Below, in pieces: positions 10,765-27,758 of a stretch of DNA of 64,000 bases. The DNA is taken from assembly GCA_903895595.1 (NCBI GenBank), contig CAITUP010000109.1, positions 1 to 64,000 of the forward strand. Reading direction: 5' to 3'. The notes below the pieces were generated by a model. It was not told the DNA's origin. It ran no database searches and saw only the letters and a list, made by a program, of their open reading frames with translations. The DNA is from an uncultured Acetobacteraceae bacterium. GTDB taxonomy: Bacteria; Pseudomonadota; Alphaproteobacteria; Acetobacterales; Acetobacteraceae. Every line of letters begins with the position of its first letter. Position 1 is the first letter of the stretch. The position numbers and the translations under genes are program-made.

Positions 10765-10838
10765 CGTCATGGTCGGGTTTAACCCGACCATCTCTGGCCA
10801 GTTGGCAAAAGGTGGCCGGGTCAAGCCCGGCCATGACG
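10765..10838. repeat. Tandem-hairpin REP/BIME-like repeat, copy 3 (between SBP gene and livH)
   Basis: CGTCATGGTCGGGtttaaCCCGACCATCT...GGCCGGGtcaagCCCGGCCATGACG; paired compensatory change relative to other copies. Confidence 0.85.
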
Positions 10839-19597: not shown

Positions 19598-20821
19598 ATG
19601 ACATTCGATTACAGCAAGCTCTACAGCGACGGGCTGCCCGATCCCGCCGGCAAATGGGCGCCGTTTCCCCCCTACTACTTCGTGGGCGGCAACAACGACC
19701 CCGAGGAAATCCCCATCGAGGGGCTGATCGAAGCCGCCGCATCGGTCCTCCGGCGGGAGGGTTCGAAACTCGCAATCTACAACCTCGGTCTCGGCCCGCA
19801 GGGCTATCCCGGTCTGCGCCAGTTCGTCGCCGACAAAGCCAACTCCCATCGTGGCTTCAAGATCGGCCTCGACGACATCCTGATCACCACCGGATCGGGC
19901 CAGGGCCTGGACATGATCAGCAAGCTGCTGGTCAACCCCGGCGACACCGTGCTGTGCGAGGAATATTGCTACCAGGGCGCCATCAACCGCTTCCGCAAAA
20001 TCGGCGCGAAGGTGGAGGGCATGAAGCTCGACGAAGACGGCATCGTCATCGACGCGCTCGCGGCACAATTGGCGGAATTGAAGGCCAAGGGCATCACGCC
20101 GAAATTCATCTACACGATCCCCACGATCCAGAACCCGACCGCGTCCATCCTGCCGTTGGATCGCCGCTTGGCCCTGATCAAACTGGCGCGGGAATACAAC
20201 GTCGCGATTTTCGAGGACGAGTGTTACGCCGACCTTCTCTGGGGCGGCATCACCGCGCCGCCCGCTCTATATGCGCTCGATCCCGGCTGCGTCATTCACC
20301 TCGGCTCGTTCTCCAAGTCGTTGGCCCCGGCGCTTCGGCTCGGCTACGTCGTCGCCGAATGGGAAATCATGCGCCGGCTGCTGCCGTTGAAAGGCGACAG
20401 CGGGACCGGCGCGCTGGATCAGATGGTGGTCGCGGAATACTTCTCGAAAAACTTCGATAAGCATCTGACTCATTTGAATGGCGTGCTGCACGACAAGCTC
20501 AAGACGATGGTCGAAGCTGTGGAGCGCGAATTCGGGGCGTCGGCCGAATGCTGGCAACCGAAAGGCGGCATCTTTCTGTGGATCAAGCTGCCGGATGGGA
20601 TCGACACCCGCAAACTGCTGAAACCGGCGGCGGCGGCGGGAATCGTCTTCAACGAAGGCCCGGCCTGGGCGGTCAGTCCGGACAATTCGACCTCGCATCT
20701 GCGGCTGTGTTTCGCGATGCCGAGCAAGAAAGTGATCGAGGAAGGTGTCGCGGCGTTCGCGCAAGTTTGTTATGAACAGACCGGCATCCCCGTGCGCAGC
20801 GCCAACGTGCAACGCGGTTAA
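19598..20821 (+). CDS. PLP-dependent aminotransferase (2-aminoadipate/class I-II type)
   Basis: SFSKSLAPALRLGYVVA PLP-lysine motif; YTIPTIQNPTASILP. Confidence 0.87.
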   Translation: MTFDYSKLYSDGLPDPAGKWAPFPPYYFVGGNNDPEEIPIEGLIEAAASVLRREGSKLAIYNLGLGPQGYPGLRQFVADKANSHRGFKIGLDDILITTGSGQGLDMISKLLVNPGDTVLCEEYCYQGAINRFRKIGAKVEGMKLDEDGIVIDALAAQLAELKAKGITPKFIYTIPTIQNPTASILPLDRRLALIKLAREYNVAIFEDECYADLLWGGITAPPALYALDPGCVIHLGSFSKSLAPALRLGYVVAEWEIMRRLLPLKGDSGTGALDQMVVAEYFSKNFDKHLTHLNGVLHDKLKTMVEAVEREFGASAECWQPKGGIFLWIKLPDGIDTRKLLKPAAAAGIVFNEGPAWAVSPDNSTSHLRLCFAMPSKKVIEEGVAAFAQVCYEQTGIPVRSANVQRG

Positions 20822-20836
20822 AGGAGGAACCTGACA

Positions 20837-21721
20837 ATGATGGACCCGATGCGTGGCAACAACGGCCCCCGCTACAAGCATGTGGCGGATGAATCGGCGC
20901 CGTACGAGACGATTGCCGTGGATAAACTGACGCCGATCATCGGCGCGGAAATCGCCGGGGTGAACCTGGCGGGCACGATCTCCAACCGGCAGATGGACGA
21001 AATCCATCGCGCGTTGGCGGAAAATTCGGTGATTTTCTTCCGCGATCAGGACATGACGCAGGAGCAGCATCTGGCGTTCGGCCGCAACTTCGGAGAGCTG
21101 CACATTCACCCCGCCGCGCCGCACGCGCCCGGCCACGATGAATTAATGATCATCCACGCCGACAAGAACAGCCCGCGCGCCAACGGCGAAGGCTGGCACA
21201 GCGATGTGTCGTGCGACACGGCACCGCCGATGGGCAGCATCCTGTATATCAAGACCTGCCCGCCCAAGGGCGGCGACACGCTGTTCGCCAGCATGTATGC
21301 CGCGTATGAGGCGCTGTCGGACAAGATGAAATCCTACCTCGAAGGCATGACCGCCCTCCACGACGGGGAGGAAAACTATCGCGGCACCTACAAAAATTTC
21401 GGCATCGCGGATAAGGCGGAATATCCGAAAGCCGAACATCCGATCGTGCGCACGCACCCGGTGACCGGCAAAAAGGCGCTGTATGTGAACCGCGGCTTTA
21501 CACGCCGCATTATCGGCGTGCCGCGCGACGAGAGCTACGCGATCCTGAATTACCTCTACACGCACTCGGAAAATCCGCTGTTCCAATGCCGGTTCCGCTG
21601 GCAGGAAAATTCCGTGGCGTTCTGGGATAACCGCTGCGTCCAGCATCGCGCGATGTGGGATTACTGGCCCAACACGCGGTCCGGCTTCCGGGTCACGGTG
21701 GCGGGCGACCGGCCGGTTTAA
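20837..21721 (+). CDS. TauD/TfdA-family Fe(II)/2-oxoglutarate dioxygenase
   Basis: EGWHSDVSCDTAPPMGSILY (HxD), WDNRCVQHRAMWDYWP distal His. Confidence 0.9.
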   Translation: MMDPMRGNNGPRYKHVADESAPYETIAVDKLTPIIGAEIAGVNLAGTISNRQMDEIHRALAENSVIFFRDQDMTQEQHLAFGRNFGELHIHPAAPHAPGHDELMIIHADKNSPRANGEGWHSDVSCDTAPPMGSILYIKTCPPKGGDTLFASMYAAYEALSDKMKSYLEGMTALHDGEENYRGTYKNFGIADKAEYPKAEHPIVRTHPVTGKKALYVNRGFTRRIIGVPRDESYAILNYLYTHSENPLFQCRFRWQENSVAFWDNRCVQHRAMWDYWPNTRSGFRVTVAGDRPV

Positions 21722-21723
21722 CC

Positions 21724-21797
21724 CGTCATGGTCGGGCCTGACTCGACCGTCTTTTCCCCATTCGCCTGAGTTGGTCGGGTCAGGCCCGACCATGACG
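21724..21797. repeat. Tandem-hairpin REP/BIME-like repeat, copy 4
   Basis: CGTCATGGTCGGGCCTGACTCGACCGT...GTTGGTCGGGTCAGGCCCGACCATGACG. Confidence 0.85.
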
Positions 21798-21811: not shown

Positions 21812-22291
21812 ATGGCGATGCTCAAACTTTCCATCAACGGCCAAAGCCGGGAGGTCGACGTCGATCCGGAAACGCCATTGCTCTGGGTCCTCCGCGAATG
21901 GCTGGGCATGACCGGAACCAAGTACGGCTGCGGCGTCGCGCAATGCGGCGCCTGCACCGTGCATGTGGACGGTGTGGCCACGCGGTCCTGCTCATTGCCG
22001 GTCGGGTCGGTTGACGCATCGAAAATTACCACCATCGAAGGCCTGTCGCCCGACGGCATGAGCCACCCGATCCAAGTCGCGTGGCTGCAACACGAAGTGC
22101 CGCAATGCGGCTACTGTCAGTCCGGCCAGATCATGGCCTCCGCCGCGCTGCTGGCCGCGAAACCGAATCCGACCGACGCGGACATCGCCGATATGGTCAC
22201 CAATATCTGCCGCTGCGGCACCTATCAGCGGATCAAGGCGGCCATTCACACAGCCGCCGAATTGACCATCCCCGCCGGCGGCAAAGCGTAG
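21812..22291 (+). CDS. [2Fe-2S] subunit of IorAB-type molybdenum hydroxylase
   Basis: [42 protein letters not shown]. Confidence 0.92.
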
Positions 22292-22301
22292 GAGCGGCAC
22301 C

Positions 22302-24458
22302 ATGACCCACGTTATGAAACTCAGCCGCCGTTTCTTCCTGACCGCTTCGGCCGTGGCCGGCGGCGGGCTTTCTCTTGGATGGACCGCGCCGGCCTCTGCC
22401 GCCGACACCGCGGGGGCCGAACTCGGCATCTGGGCCGTGATCCATCCCGACGACACCGTAGTTGTCCGTATCGCTCGGTCGGAAATGGGCCAGGGCACAC
22501 TGACCGGTCTCGCGCAGCTGGTCGCCGATGAGCTCGATGCCGACTGGCGCTTCGTCAAAGCGGAATACGTGGCGCCCGAGGTCAATCTGGCCAACAAACG
22601 CGCCTGGGGCGACATGTCCACCGGCGGCAGCCGCGGCATTCGGGCGTCCGTCGAGTACGTCCGCAAGGGCGGCGCGGCCGGGCGCGCAATGCTGATCCAG
22701 GCGGCGGCGGCGAAATGGGCTGTGCCGGCGACGGAATGTTCCACCGGCATGAGCGTCGTCACCCACAAACCCACGGGCCGCACCCTGCGCTACGGCGAAA
22801 TCGCCGCCGAGGCCGCGAAACTGCCAGTACCCGACGACATCAAGGTCAAGACGCCAGCAGAATGGAAGCTGATCGGCCGCGGCGTGAAGCGGCTGGACAC
22901 GGTGGACAAGCTGAACGGCAAGCTGACATATGCGATCGACGTGCAGCTGCCGGACATGCTGAACGCCGCCATCGCGCAAAGCCCGGTGTTCGGCGGCAAG
23001 CTGAAATCCTTCGACGCCGCCAAGATCAAATCCATGCCGGGCGTGCGCTTCGTGGTGCCGGTGGACGACAACGCTGTCGCGGTCGTCGCGGATAAATGGT
23101 ACCAGGCCAAAACAGCCCTGGCCGCTCTGCCGGTCGTTTGGGATGAGGGCAAGAACGGCAACGTCGACAGCGCCCAGATCGCCGCCTTTTTGAAGGAGGG
23201 CTTGGACGCCAAGGAAGCGGCCCTGGCGCAGGAACATGGCGACGTAACAGCGGCTCTGGCCGGCGCCGCCAAGAAGGTGGAATCCGTCTACGGCACCCCG
23301 TTCCTGCATCACGCGACGCTGGAGCCGATGAACTGCACGGCGAAATTCGCCGATGGCAAGGTGGAAGTCTGGGTATCCAGCCAAAATGGCGACGCATCGT
23401 TGGCGGCGGCGGCCGAGGCCGGCGGCGTGAAGCTGGCGGATGTGAAGGTACACAAGCATCATCTCGGCGGCGGGTTCGGCCGGCGCGGGCAGCAGGATTA
23501 CGTCAAGCAAGCCGTGCTGATCGCGAAACAGGTGCCGGGGCGCCCGATCAAGCTGATCTGGACCCGTGAGGAGGATATGACTCACGGGTTCTACCGCCCG
23601 ATCACCCAGGCGAAAATGTCGGCCGGGCTTGACGCGCAGGGCAATGTTACGGCGCTTCACGCCCGCCTGTCAGGACAGTCCATCCTGGCCTATCTGATGC
23701 CGCAACGGATGGAAAACGGCGTGGATATGATCGCGTTCCAGGGCTGGACCAAGGAAGAGTTCGGCTACATGGCGATCCCCAATCTGCGGATCGATCACGC
23801 CGTGCGCAACACGCATGTGCCCGTTGGGTTCTGGCGCGGTGTGAACACCAACCAAAACTCTATCTACATGGAATGCTTCATCGACGAAGTCGCGCACGCC
23901 GCCGGCAAGGACCCGCTGGAATTCCGCCGCACGCTGATGGCGAAAAACCCCAAGCATCTGGCGGTTTTGAACGCCGTCGCCGAACGCGCCGGCTGGGGCA
24001 CACCGTTGCCGAAGGGTGTCTATCGCGGCATCGCGCAGAACGCCGGTTTCGGCAGCTACGTTGCCGCGGTGGCGGAGGTTTCGGTTTCCCCCAAGGGCGA
24101 GCTGACGATCCATCGCATCGTCGCCGGCACCGACTGCGGTTATGTTGTGAACCCGGATCAGGTGGCGGCGCAGGTCGAAGGATCGTTCGTGTTCGGCCTG
24201 AGCGCACTGCTGACCAGCGAAATCACCATCGAGAAAGGCCGAGCGGTCGAAACGAATTTCGATAGCTACCAGGTGATGCGGTTGGCATCCATGCCGAAGG
24301 TGGAAACGGTTTTGGTGCCGTCGGGCGGGTTCTGGGGCGGGGTGGGCGAGCCGACCATCGCCGTGGCACCGCCGGCAGTGCTGAACGCGATCTTCGCCGC
24401 GACCGGCAAGCGCATCCGCACCTTGCCGCTGACGCATCACGACCTTTCGCACGCATGA
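22302..24458 (+). CDS. Molybdopterin-binding subunit of IorAB-type hydroxylase (xanthine dehydrogenase family)
   Basis: Tat-like SRRFFLTASAVAGG; MGQGTLTGLAQLVADELDADW; GGGFGRRGQQDYV; PVGFWRGVNTNQNS. Confidence 0.92.
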   Translation: MTHVMKLSRRFFLTASAVAGGGLSLGWTAPASAADTAGAELGIWAVIHPDDTVVVRIARSEMGQGTLTGLAQLVADELDADWRFVKAEYVAPEVNLANKRAWGDMSTGGSRGIRASVEYVRKGGAAGRAMLIQAAAAKWAVPATECSTGMSVVTHKPTGRTLRYGEIAAEAAKLPVPDDIKVKTPAEWKLIGRGVKRLDTVDKLNGKLTYAIDVQLPDMLNAAIAQSPVFGGKLKSFDAAKIKSMPGVRFVVPVDDNAVAVVADKWYQAKTALAALPVVWDEGKNGNVDSAQIAAFLKEGLDAKEAALAQEHGDVTAALAGAAKKVESVYGTPFLHHATLEPMNCTAKFADGKVEVWVSSQNGDASLAAAAEAGGVKLADVKVHKHHLGGGFGRRGQQDYVKQAVLIAKQVPGRPIKLIWTREEDMTHGFYRPITQAKMSAGLDAQGNVTALHARLSGQSILAYLMPQRMENGVDMIAFQGWTKEEFGYMAIPNLRIDHAVRNTHVPVGFWRGVNTNQNSIYMECFIDEVAHAAGKDPLEFRRTLMAKNPKHLAVLNAVAERAGWGTPLPKGVYRGIAQNAGFGSYVAAVAEVSVSPKGELTIHRIVAGTDCGYVVNPDQVAAQVEGSFVFGLSALLTSEITIEKGRAVETNFDSYQVMRLASMPKVETVLVPSGGFWGGVGEPTIAVAPPAVLNAIFAATGKRIRTLPLTHHDLSHA

Positions 24459-24694
24459 TCGGGCGGGCGGCCCTGGCGATGGTGCTGCTGGGCGCTGCTG
24501 CCCCGCCGCCGGGGGCGACCAGTTGTTCCGGCTGTCATGTATTGGCGGGACGGCCGGCGGCGAACACCGTCGCGGCGTTGGAAGCGTTTCGGTCCGGCGC
24601 CAAACCCGCGACCGTGATGGGCCGCATCGCGAAAGGATTCTCGCCCGAGGAAACCCAGGCCATCGCGACGTGGTGGGCGGGGCAAAAACCATGA
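24455..24694 (+). CDS. Monoheme c-type cytochrome, FccA-like
   Basis: 79 aa; one CSGCH; MGRIAKGFSPEETQAIATWWAGQ; ATGA overlap with the upstream molybdopterin gene. Confidence 0.85.
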   Translation: MIGRAALAMVLLGAAAPPPGATSCSGCHVLAGRPAANTVAALEAFRSGAKPATVMGRIAKGFSPEETQAIATWWAGQKP

Positions 24695-25932
24695 GCGTAA
24701 CACGGCGTTCCGTTGTCGCCGGCGGTCTGGCGCTGCCGTTCGCGGCGCGTGCCGCCGGTTCCCCCCGCGTCGTCGTCATCGGCGGCGGATTCGGCGGAGC
24801 CTCCGCCGCTCGGGCGTTGGGCCGTTACGCACCCGGCGTGGACGTGACACTGGTGGAGGCCAACGCCACCTTCACCGCATGCCCCTTTAGCAACCATGTC
24901 ATTGCCGGTCTGCGCGACATCGCGGCGCAACGGTTCGGCTACAAATCGGTCGGCACGAAGGTCGTGCATGCCGAGGCGACGGGAGTCGATGCCACTGCCC
25001 GCCGCGTGACGCTGAACAATGGGACGGTGTTGGCCTACGACCGCCTGATCCTGTCGCCCGGCATCGACATTGCCTGGGACAAGCTGCCGGGTTACGACGA
25101 AGCCGCCAGCGAACGGATGCCCCACGCCTGGAAGGCCGGCGCCCAGACGCTGCTACTGCGGAAGCAGTTGGCGGCCATGAAGGATGGCGGCACCGTTGTC
25201 ATGTCGGTACCCGCCAATCCCTACCGTTGCCCACCCGGTCCTTACGAGCGTGCCAGTCTGATCGCGTGGTATTTGAAGACCCACAAACCACGCTCGAAAC
25301 TGCTGGTGTTGGACGCGAAGGATGCTTTCTCCAAGCAGAAATTGTTCCAGGCGGGCTGGGCGAAGCTGTATCCCGGTATTCTGAAATGGGTGTCGGCGTC
25401 CGATGGCGGAACGGTCACGCGCGTCGATCCGGCAACGCTGACGTTTGCGACCGATTTCGGATCTCACAAAGCCGATGTTGCCAACGTGATTCCGCCGCAA
25501 AAGGCGGGGCGCATCGCGGCGGTGGCAGGCGTGGCGGACAAAACCGGTTGGTGCCCGATCGATCCGGTTACGTTCGAATCGCGGCTGGTGCCCGGCGTTC
25601 ACGTCATCGGCGACGCGGCCATTGCCGGCGCCATGCCGAAATCGGCCTTTGCCGCCAACGCGCAAGCCAAAGTCTGCGCTTTGGCGATCGCCCGTCTGCT
25701 GGAAGGCGGTACACCGGACGATCCCCGGCTGATCAACACCTGCTATTCCCTGCTGGCGCCGCATTACGGCATCTCCGTCGCCGGCATCTACCGGCCTGCG
25801 AAGGGGTTGTTAACGGATATACCGGATGCAGGCGGCACCAGTCCGCTGGACGCCCCGGATTCGTTTCGTGCTCAGGAGGCGGCCAATGCCGACGCGTGGT
25901 TCCGCACGATTACCCATGAAGCGTTCGGTTAG
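24691..25932 (+). CDS. Flavocytochrome c sulfide dehydrogenase flavoprotein subunit (FccB/SoxF-like)
   Basis: Tat-like TRRSVVAGG; VVVIGGGFGGASAARAL; Cys motifs FTACPFSNHVI and TGWCPIDP; overlaps cytochrome gene. Confidence 0.9.
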   Translation: MSVTRRSVVAGGLALPFAARAAGSPRVVVIGGGFGGASAARALGRYAPGVDVTLVEANATFTACPFSNHVIAGLRDIAAQRFGYKSVGTKVVHAEATGVDATARRVTLNNGTVLAYDRLILSPGIDIAWDKLPGYDEAASERMPHAWKAGAQTLLLRKQLAAMKDGGTVVMSVPANPYRCPPGPYERASLIAWYLKTHKPRSKLLVLDAKDAFSKQKLFQAGWAKLYPGILKWVSASDGGTVTRVDPATLTFATDFGSHKADVANVIPPQKAGRIAAVAGVADKTGWCPIDPVTFESRLVPGVHVIGDAAIAGAMPKSAFAANAQAKVCALAIARLLEGGTPDDPRLINTCYSLLAPHYGISVAGIYRPAKGLLTDIPDAGGTSPLDAPDSFRAQEAANADAWFRTITHEAFG

Positions 25933-26281
25933 CCTCGGGGTGGCGGCGTTGCTGACGATGGCCGCGGGCGATCCCGGGTCCGGTCGCGCCATCGTCGCGA
26001 ACCGGCAGGTCAGCGCCTGTCTGCTGTGCCATTCCGGCCCGATCCCCGATCCGCATTTGCAAGGAAACCTCGCGCCGGCGCTGACAGGCGTCGGATCGCG
26101 GCTGACGGCGGCGGAACTGCGCCAACGCCTGACCGACCCCGGCAAGGACAGCATCATGCCGTCCTATGCCGCCACGGCCGGATTGAACCGCGTCGGTCAG
26201 CCATGGGTGGGAAAACCGGTGCTGACGCCGACGCAAATCGACGATGTGGTGGCGTTTCTTTCCACGTTGCGGGCGCCATGA
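25916..26281 (+). CDS. soxX: SoxX-like monoheme c-type cytochrome
   Basis: CLLCH heme motif; LAPALTGVGSRLTAAELRQRLTDPGKDSIMPSY; within sox gene order. Confidence 0.85.
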   Translation: MKRSVSLGVAALLTMAAGDPGSGRAIVANRQVSACLLCHSGPIPDPHLQGNLAPALTGVGSRLTAAELRQRLTDPGKDSIMPSYAATAGLNRVGQPWVGKPVLTPTQIDDVVAFLSTLRAP

Positions 26282-26703
26282 TCGCCCGCCGGCGTTTCGT
26301 GCTGACGGCGGCGGCGGGCACGGTGTTGCCGGTGGCCGCGACCGCCTCGCATGTGCAGGTGGCCGTTCTGATCCGGCAACTGGTCGGCGACGCCAAGTTG
26401 GCGGAAGGGCGGGTGAAACTCGACCTTCCCGTCCTGGTGGAAAACGGCAATACGGTCGGCATGACCGTTTCGGTCGATGCACCGCCCGGCGCCGTGCATT
26501 CGCTGCACGTTTATGCCGAGGCCAATCCTTTACCGGAAGTCTGCCACATTCGTTTCGGCCCGCGGGCCGGCGTGCCCCGCATCCAAACCCGCATACGCCT
26601 CGCGACCTCGCAGACCGTTACCGCAATCGCGCAAATGCACGACGGCACGTTCTGGCAGGACAGCGTGGAACTGCTGGTCACCCTCGCTGCCTGTATCGAT
26701 TAA
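26278..26703 (+). CDS. soxY: SoxY-like sulfur carrier protein with non-canonical C-terminus AACID
   Basis: RRRFVLTAAAGTVLP leader; DLPVLVENGNTVGMTVSV; followed by soxZ and soxA; last codons gct gcc tgt atc gat taa. Confidence 0.8.
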   Translation: MIARRRFVLTAAAGTVLPVAATASHVQVAVLIRQLVGDAKLAEGRVKLDLPVLVENGNTVGMTVSVDAPPGAVHSLHVYAEANPLPEVCHIRFGPRAGVPRIQTRIRLATSQTVTAIAQMHDGTFWQDSVELLVTLAACID

Positions 26704-26712
26704 GGGGGCACC

Positions 26713-27033
26713 ATGGTCCGCGTCCTGCTGAACGTGCCGAGACAAGTCCGCAGGAATGAGCCGTTCGACGTGAAGCTGCTGATTTCCCATCCCATGGAAA
26801 GCGGCCAACGCCGCGACGCGGTCGGGCTGGCGATTCCGCGCGATATTATCAATCTGCTCGTCGTAACGTACGGGAACGAAGAAGTCCTGCGGATGGACTT
26901 GTTCCCCGCCATCGCCGCCAATCCCTTCCTGGCGTTTTCCATGACAGCGGTCGCCAGCGGCACCTTGTCGATTACGTTCACCGACGATCACGGCGTCACG
27001 CAAAGCGAAACAGCAACGGTGGAGGTCGTGTGA
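26713..27033 (+). CDS. soxZ: SoxZ-like protein
   Basis: KLLISHPMESGQRRD signature; DLFPAIAANPFLAFSM. Confidence 0.92.
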   Translation: MVRVLLNVPRQVRRNEPFDVKLLISHPMESGQRRDAVGLAIPRDIINLLVVTYGNEEVLRMDLFPAIAANPFLAFSMTAVASGTLSITFTDDHGVTQSETATVEVV

Positions 27034-27758
27034 AGCGCCTGCTGGTCCTGGCGTTATTACTGACCGCCGCCGCCGGAGACATTCATTCCGGTTACGACGA
27101 CGCCAGCCCCGAAACACGCGCGATGCAGGACGACGACAGCGCCAACCCCGGCTTTCTGTGGGTGCGGGAGGGGGAGGCGCAATGGTCTGGCAAAGCTTGT
27201 GCTGCCTGCCACGGCGATGCTCGTGTCTCGATGCGCGGCGTAGCGGCCCGCTATCCGGCATACGATGCGGCGCTGAACCGCCCCATCACGCTCGACCAAC
27301 GGATCGCGCAATGCCGCACCGAACGGCAGCATGCCGAACCTTTCACGCCGGAGAGCGATGCTGCTTTGGGTCTCAGCGCGTATATCGGGCTGCAATCGCG
27401 GGGGATGCCATTGCAGGTCTCAACCGATGGGCCGATGCGGCCGTTCTACGAAACGGGGCGGACGCTGTTCAACACGCGCATGGGGCAATTGAACCTGTCC
27501 TGCGCGCAATGCCACGACGAACGGGCCGGCATGAAGCTGGCCGGTGCCGTCATTCCGCAAGGGCATCCGAACGGTTATCCGGAGTATCGGCTGGAATGGC
27601 AAACCATGGGGTCGCTCACCCGCCGCATCCGCAATTGCATGGTGGGCGTTCGCGCCGAACCATTTCCGCCAGACTCGGCGGAAATGACGGCGCTGGCTTT
27701 GTTTTTGGCGGCACGGGCGGCGGGCTTAAAGATCGAAACGCCCGCCGTTCGTCCCTGA
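27030..27758 (+). CDS. soxA: SoxA-like diheme c-type cytochrome
   Basis: Two heme motifs CAACH and CAQCH; RIRNCMVGVRAEPF; SPETRAMQDDDSANPGFLWV. Confidence 0.92.
   Translation: MKRLLVLALLLTAAAGDIHSGYDDASPETRAMQDDDSANPGFLWVREGEAQWSGKACAACHGDARVSMRGVAARYPAYDAALNRPITLDQRIAQCRTERQHAEPFTPESDAALGLSAYIGLQSRGMPLQVSTDGPMRPFYETGRTLFNTRMGQLNLSCAQCHDERAGMKLAGAVIPQGHPNGYPEYRLEWQTMGSLTRRIRNCMVGVRAEPFPPDSAEMTALALFLAARAAGLKIETPAVRP

Follow-up and report, generated by a model that had tools for sequence, protein, structure and literature searches.

A conserved iorAB-soxXYZA gene unit with an altered SoxY arm in an uncultured Acetobacteraceae bacterium

Gene content of the unit

The window analysed here is a stretch of 64,000 nucleotides (contig CAITUP010000109.1, positions 1 to 64,000) from an uncultured Acetobacteraceae bacterium with a genome of 5.46 Mb that is 99.56% complete. 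Positions 21812–27758 of its forward strand contained eight densely packed genes of one direction, in the order iorA-iorB-cytochrome c-fccB-soxX-soxY-soxZ-soxA. These genes, as listed with their coordinates in the initial annotation, were confirmed by the sequence and by family models, the small cytochrome by its CSGCH motif. The five overlapping junctions it had described (24455/24458, 24691/24694, 25916/25932, 26278/26281 and 27030/27033) were exact in the sequence, and the remaining two junctions were gaps of approximately 10 bases, so the unit is likely transcribed as a single mRNA. It was bounded downstream by the convergent valS (27763) and upstream by a palindrome. The features were as follows:

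21724–21797, no strand: palindrome between tauD and iorA, upstream limit of the unit; folding energy −57.4 kcal/mol (z −8.0); made up of two copies of a genome-wide element resembling repetitive extragenic palindromes (REP-like)
21812–22291, + strand: iorA, 2x[2Fe-2S] subunit of an IorAB-type molybdenum hydroxylase (Pfam Fer2, Fer2_2)
22302–24458, + strand: iorB, molybdopterin subunit (Pfam MoCoBD_1/2); twin-arginine translocation (Tat) signal SRRFFLTA; catalytic GVGEP kept
24455–24694, + strand: small monohaem cytochrome c of 79 amino acids; haem motif CSGCH, signal-like start, no match to a family model
24691–25932, + strand: fccB, flavoprotein of flavocytochrome c sulfide dehydrogenase (FCSD); Pfam FCSD_central (PF21706) and FCSD-flav_bind (PF09242); Tat signal
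25916–26281, + strand: soxX, monohaem cytochrome c (CLLCH); TIGR04485 56.4 bits (cut-off 61)
26278–26703, + strand: soxY, AAC-arm class, ending in VTLAACID; Tat signal RRRFVLT; TIGR04487 153 bits, TIGR04488 91 bits
26713–27033, + strand: soxZ; TIGR04490 86.8 bits (cut-off 76)
27030–27758, + strand: soxA, dihaem (CAACH, CAQCH); TIGR04484 214.8 bits (cut-off 110)

The hydroxylase had the separate 2x[2Fe-2S] and molybdenum subunits of the IorAB type and no adjoining flavin adenine dinucleotide (FAD) subunit. FccB matched 5n1t (E 5.5e-142), and the aligned FAD-attachment and redox-disulfide cysteines were kept; with the cytochrome encoded at 24455–24694, this is the composition of an FCSD. SoxA retained the catalytic haem-ligand cysteine region (NCMVGVRAEPF) in an alignment to 1h31 and 2c1d. 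Tat signals were present on IorB, the FCSD flavoprotein and SoxY.

By established biochemistry, SoxXA joins a thiol-type sulfur substrate to the cysteine of SoxY through a disulfide, SoxB acts as hydrolase on the sulfonate, and sulfane is oxidised by SoxCD. The initial annotation had noted the absence of SoxB and SoxCD from the unit, and neither soxB (best match 43 bits, cut-off 550) nor soxC (164 bits, cut-off 420) was found in the host genome. The best SoxC match was a stand-alone SorA-type sulfite dehydrogenase (L003:1438–2739; 414 bits, cut-off 600). The genome encoded a single SoxY. Like the canonical SoxXYZABCD system, the unit combined SoxXA, with a dihaem SoxA, and SoxYZ, with catalytic and carrier cysteines intact. 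It differed in its molybdenum hydroxylase and FCSD, in lacking SoxB and SoxCD, and in a SoxY arm that ends in AACID instead of GGCGG. A canonical thiosulfate Sox system was ruled out by the missing soxB and soxCD together with this altered arm.

SoxY arm classes and their partner genes

The initial annotation had overlooked the SoxY arm. The canonical C-terminus reads VTxGGCGG, whereas in VTLAACID the arm cysteine is still third from the end and the surrounding glycines are replaced. The best model for the window SoxY was TIGR04487, 'SoxY-related AACIE arm protein', at a score below the curated cut-off of 172 bits; its score to the true-SoxY model TIGR04488 was below the cut-off of 125. The AAC-x-[ED] arm of TIGR04487, for which the model output gives no partner enzyme, was present in the window protein, and AAC was invariant in a 20-row alignment. 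By arm and model scores, we assign the window SoxY to this NCBIfam AACIE-arm family. A literature search for 'AACIE' found no paper using the term.

In 299 genomes of the same order, TIGR04487 was matched in 103, with 21 of the 299 above the cut-off, and the C-termini of the fetched loci allowed AAC arms to be separated from GGCGG arms. When species genomes were searched with 20 aligned AAC-arm SoxYs, more than 550 relatives were found, 80 of which were kept with flanks and names, a sample biased toward close SoxY relatives. They belonged to Acetobacteraceae, Stella, Bradyrhizobium, Xanthobacteraceae, Hyphomicrobiaceae and Ferrovibrio. All 80 carried an xAC arm, and nearly all showed iorAB, often fccB, then soxXYZA. 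Since the search patterns were built from SoxY alone, adjacency to iorAB was not selected for. The order iorAB-soxXYZA also occurred, without FCSD and with SoxY arms of the SAC-T-E type, in a family of another class of the phylum with genomes of approximately 2 Mb (family f66). Conservation across relatives ruled out a strain-specific accident, and the unit is, on this sampling, more general than first proposed.

Three arm classes were distinguished, each with its own gene neighbourhood, as counted in loci with enough flanking DNA. In the 67 de-duplicated [AGS]AC-x-[ED]-arm loci with full flanks, iorA, iorB, soxX, soxZ and soxA were each present without exception, fccB was present in 56 and soxB in none. 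The synteny comparison proposed in the initial annotation thus found the iorAB-sox linkage conserved in 67/67 loci, which excludes an adjacency unique to this strain; the association of IorAB with the sulfur carrier is strong. GGCGG-arm loci contained soxB (6/6) and no iorAB (0/6). GGC[LI]x-arm loci contained fccB in 13 of 16 cases and neither soxXA nor soxB (0/16 each); one of them, L139, had iorAB-like genes within 9 kb, its iorB being only 28% identical. The GGC[LI][STGA]-arm SoxYs (L117–L132, L139) usually stood in fccAB-soxYZ clusters lacking soxXA, soxB and iorAB, and FCSD seems to be the sole source feeding this class of carrier.

The classes are not interchangeable copies, since genome G207 had one locus of each (L137, L138 and L139). 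In a SoxY tree built without the arm columns (120 columns, inner forks not all resolved), the AAC class formed one side of a branch with a Shimodaira–Hasegawa-like approximate likelihood ratio test (SH-aLRT) value of 92, and the three arm labels required the minimum of two changes. As far as the sequences indicate, the altered arm is the best evidence for a different chemistry. With a different partner enzyme for each of the three classes, the set also allows a clean test of whether partner choice is encoded in the SoxY tip.

IorB matches in the 299 genomes fell into 53 with at least 57% identity and a remainder with at most 48%. A SoxY was encoded within 6 kb of 48 of the 53 subfamily members, and two more (L223, L224), which had matching fragments, lay at the ends of contigs. 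Near the next-nearest IorBs (36–48% identity), sox genes were found in 0 of 20 cases. Twenty-one conserved positions were private to the subfamily in comparison with control IorBs. Among them were two residues just past the conserved WRGV (N515, N517) and two just past GVGEP (T685, I686); R9, R10 and E683 were conserved in subfamily and control IorBs alike. By analogy with xanthine oxidase, the WRGV and GVGEP motifs are taken to line the molybdenum site. Private residues beside these motifs make it likely that the subfamily has one shared, distinct substrate.

Of the 50 genomes with a subfamily IorB, 11 encoded soxB (25 of the 249 others), which indicates that the unit is independent of soxB. 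Those 11 genomes, and the catalytic features kept in SoxXA, are what an ordinary but incomplete thiosulfate Sox system, with SoxB and SoxCD acting from elsewhere in the genome, could appeal to. The host itself has no soxB, however, and neither do 39 of the 50 genomes; the SoxY arm is not GGCGG, and both SoxYs are retained where a genome has the two arms, as in G207. This alternative is largely refuted and very improbable.

FCSD was less constant than IorAB. Eleven loci had iorAB-soxXYZA with neither fccB nor the small cytochrome; in such fccB-less loci, soxX followed close behind iorB. In relatives, the small cytochrome was detected solely beside fccB, and at L153 and L156, where fccB lies downstream of soxA, it had moved along. 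In 31 loci fccB was present and the cytochrome went undetected, which is an upper bound because tblastn is weak for so short a protein; in six loci from Bradyrhizobium and relatives, inspection for haem motifs gave none between iorB and soxX apart from that of soxX itself. Since the cytochrome occurred only with fccB and 11 loci lacked both, FCSD with its small cytochrome is regarded, on gene content, as a frequent accessory and not as part of the core. The cytochrome is most simply read as FccA, the FCSD cytochrome subunit. The idea raised in the initial annotation, that it accepts electrons from both IorAB and FCSD, was rejected on the same distribution.

In two genera (L229 and L230), a ModE-like regulator and a fused XdhC-MocA protein were encoded directly after soxA (L229:11526–17394; L230:11520–13415). 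At L229, moaA and further apparent molybdenum cofactor genes followed. Cofactor supply thus appears tied to the unit at these two loci. Tandem extra copies of iorB (iorA-iorB-iorB) or of iorAB occurred within the unit at L066:1993–6348, L231:8238–12581, L071 and L077, perhaps reflecting different substrate ranges.

Proposed function and related systems

We tentatively favour, with rather less than even confidence, the view that the eight genes encode their own periplasmic oxidation module, separate from thiosulfate Sox, with IorAB and SoxXYZA with an AAC arm as its core and FCSD as an accessory, in which IorAB processes an arm-bound substrate. Gene content, linkage, arm class and the absence of soxB and soxCD led us to infer a periplasmic complex in which IorAB contacts SoxYZ, and an order of steps from loading onward. 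SoxXA would oxidatively couple a thiol-bearing sulfur compound to the SoxY arm cysteine, with electrons passing to a c-type cytochrome. With SoxB absent, the conjugate would not be hydrolysed to sulfate; the arm would hand it to IorAB instead. IorAB would hydroxylate it with water, most likely at the carbon beside the sulfur. An aldehyde or acid would be released and sulfane sulfur or sulfide left, which FCSD, where present, would oxidise.

The unit retained SoxXA and the carrier cysteine, lacked SoxB and SoxCD, and had IorAB as a constant partner; on the simplest interpretation, the arm is altered to suit IorAB. The known chemistry of the IorAB enzyme family is hydroxylation of C–H bonds or aldehydes, so an arm-bound organic thiol is the most likely substrate. 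The alternative route of sulfur-conjugate oxidation suggested in the initial annotation is plausible, given the invariant linkage and the missing SoxB and SoxCD, while N-heterocycle oxidation found no support beyond the family name. Carrier-tethered C–H hydroxylation by a xanthine-oxidase-family enzyme, breaking a C–S bond, would be a periplasmic organosulfur route not described so far; this more specific proposal is doubtful.

Several observations weigh against the proposed module. Three of the 53 subfamily IorBs belonged to orphan iorAB pairs with no adjoining sox genes (L220, L221 and L222; 65–82% identity), and IorAB of this type may therefore work on its own; the orphan neighbourhoods had no consistent theme, apparent cysND-like genes being seen near the one at L221. 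Characterised IorAB-like enzymes oxidise sugars and free aldehydes, for example deoxyribose (PMC6365646). No gene of the unit names a substrate, and flanking genes differ among lineages; they were too heterogeneous among loci to serve as a substrate clue. Methanethiol oxidase, considered as an upstream source of aldehyde and sulfide, showed no co-occurrence (2/50 genomes with the unit, 8/249 others) and was rejected as a general upstream partner.

The orphan pairs and the sugar- and aldehyde-oxidising relatives fit a serious, if somewhat unlikely, rival: two uncoupled functions in one co-regulated operon. IorAB would then act on an aldehyde or heterocycle, and FCSD and SoxXYZA on sulfide or sulfane sulfur from the same food source, with no contact between the proteins. 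The closest solved structure to IorB, the large subunit of an aldehyde dehydrogenase (8gy3, E 5e-73), is also in keeping with this. What the rival leaves unaccounted for is that soxXA and the AAC arm were invariant with iorAB whereas FCSD, the sulfide enzyme, was not, and that the carrier arm changes along with the partner enzyme. The deoxyribose dehydrogenase of Pseudomonas simiae and the acetic-acid-bacterial 8gy3 enzyme resemble the window enzyme in having IorA, a Tat-exported IorB and no FAD subunit. They differ in pairing with a cytochrome c of their own; in the unit, the small cytochrome goes with fccB, and IorAB goes with SoxXYZA.

IorAB might instead replace SoxCD and oxidise SoxY-bound sulfane sulfur in an inorganic route from sulfide, polysulfide or thiosulfate that dispenses with SoxB. 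SoxCD, too, contains molybdenum and acts on sulfur bound to SoxY, FCSD adjoins most AAC-arm units, and the host encodes the SorA-type sulfite dehydrogenase elsewhere. Against this, we know of no xanthine-oxidase-family enzyme that oxidises sulfane sulfur, and the unit has no sulfate-releasing hydrolase. In Bradyrhizobium diazoefficiens, moreover, soxY1 was essential for thiosulfate oxidation and soxY2 was not (PMC5748708). We consider this substitution improbable.

In a genome labelled B. diazoefficiens, a GGCGG SoxY lay beside soxB and an AAC-arm SoxY within an iorAB unit. The latter is likely the published soxY2, although a third SoxY-like protein is also encoded there. This third protein (L259; 286 codons, 71 bits to true SoxY) is possibly a SoxYZ fusion. 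As soxY2 has already been told apart from soxY1 in this species, the question is testable now.

The unit has been recorded once in the literature, and left unexplained, as the second sox cluster of Starkeya novella (Snov_1975-1982), which comprises soxX2Y2Z2A2F2 and a xanthine-oxidase-family molybdenum enzyme (PMC3797975). Like the window unit, it combines in one operon SoxXA and SoxYZ with a two-gene molybdenum enzyme and a protein resembling FCSD, and it lacks SoxB and SoxCD; it differs in that the molybdenum enzyme is reported at the opposite end, and the SoxY arm was not described there. Expression of the cluster was very low during growth on thiosulfate, methanol or glucose, and no function was suggested by the authors (PMC3797975). 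Such low expression would agree with a vestigial duplicate that has no present function, as suggested for S. novella. Open reading frames and catalytic motifs were kept over large divergence in two classes, however, and the authors allowed for other growth conditions (PMC3797975); we regard a vestigial unit as extremely unlikely.

A survey of SoxY discarded sequences lacking GGC (PMC11237559), so the AAC-arm class was invisible to it. The same survey described fused SoxYZ carriers (SoxYZ-S2/S4) tied to quinoprotein, methanol or formate dehydrogenases (PMC11237559). The quinoprotein-associated SoxYZ of TIGR04557 resembles the unit in tying a carrier to a periplasmic carbon-oxidising dehydrogenase and not to SoxB. 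It is, however, a fused SoxYZ with pyrroloquinoline quinone (PQQ) or methanol/formate dehydrogenases, whereas the window encodes separate SoxY and SoxZ (60.7 and 52.7 bits against a cut-off of 140) with SoxXA and a molybdenum hydroxylase.

The unit is a conserved and nearly unstudied Sox carrier variant, whose AAC-arm genes can be mistaken for thiosulfate oxidation genes. If the separate route is true, soxYZ or soxXA alone would be a poor marker for thiosulfate oxidation. Many soil and freshwater bacteria would then gain an unrecognised capacity for periplasmic sulfur or organosulfur oxidation.

Flanking sequence

A pyridoxal phosphate-dependent aminotransferase and a TauD-type dioxygenase were encoded upstream of iorA (19598–21721). 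Locus L035 kept this order before iorA (93% and 85% identity). TauD was rejected as a member of the system, being beside iorA in the window and at L035 and not at the other loci.

The REP-like element of the upstream palindrome, GTCATGGTCGGGCCTGAC, occurred in 379 copies in the genome at up to one mismatch (196 forward, 183 reverse), and its reversed control in 0 copies. Window copies lay at 21725–21742 and 21779–21796, and also at 87–104, 2119–2136, 2217–2234 and 10820–10837. Several copies were approximately 100 bases or less from contig ends, and the element may therefore break the assembly.

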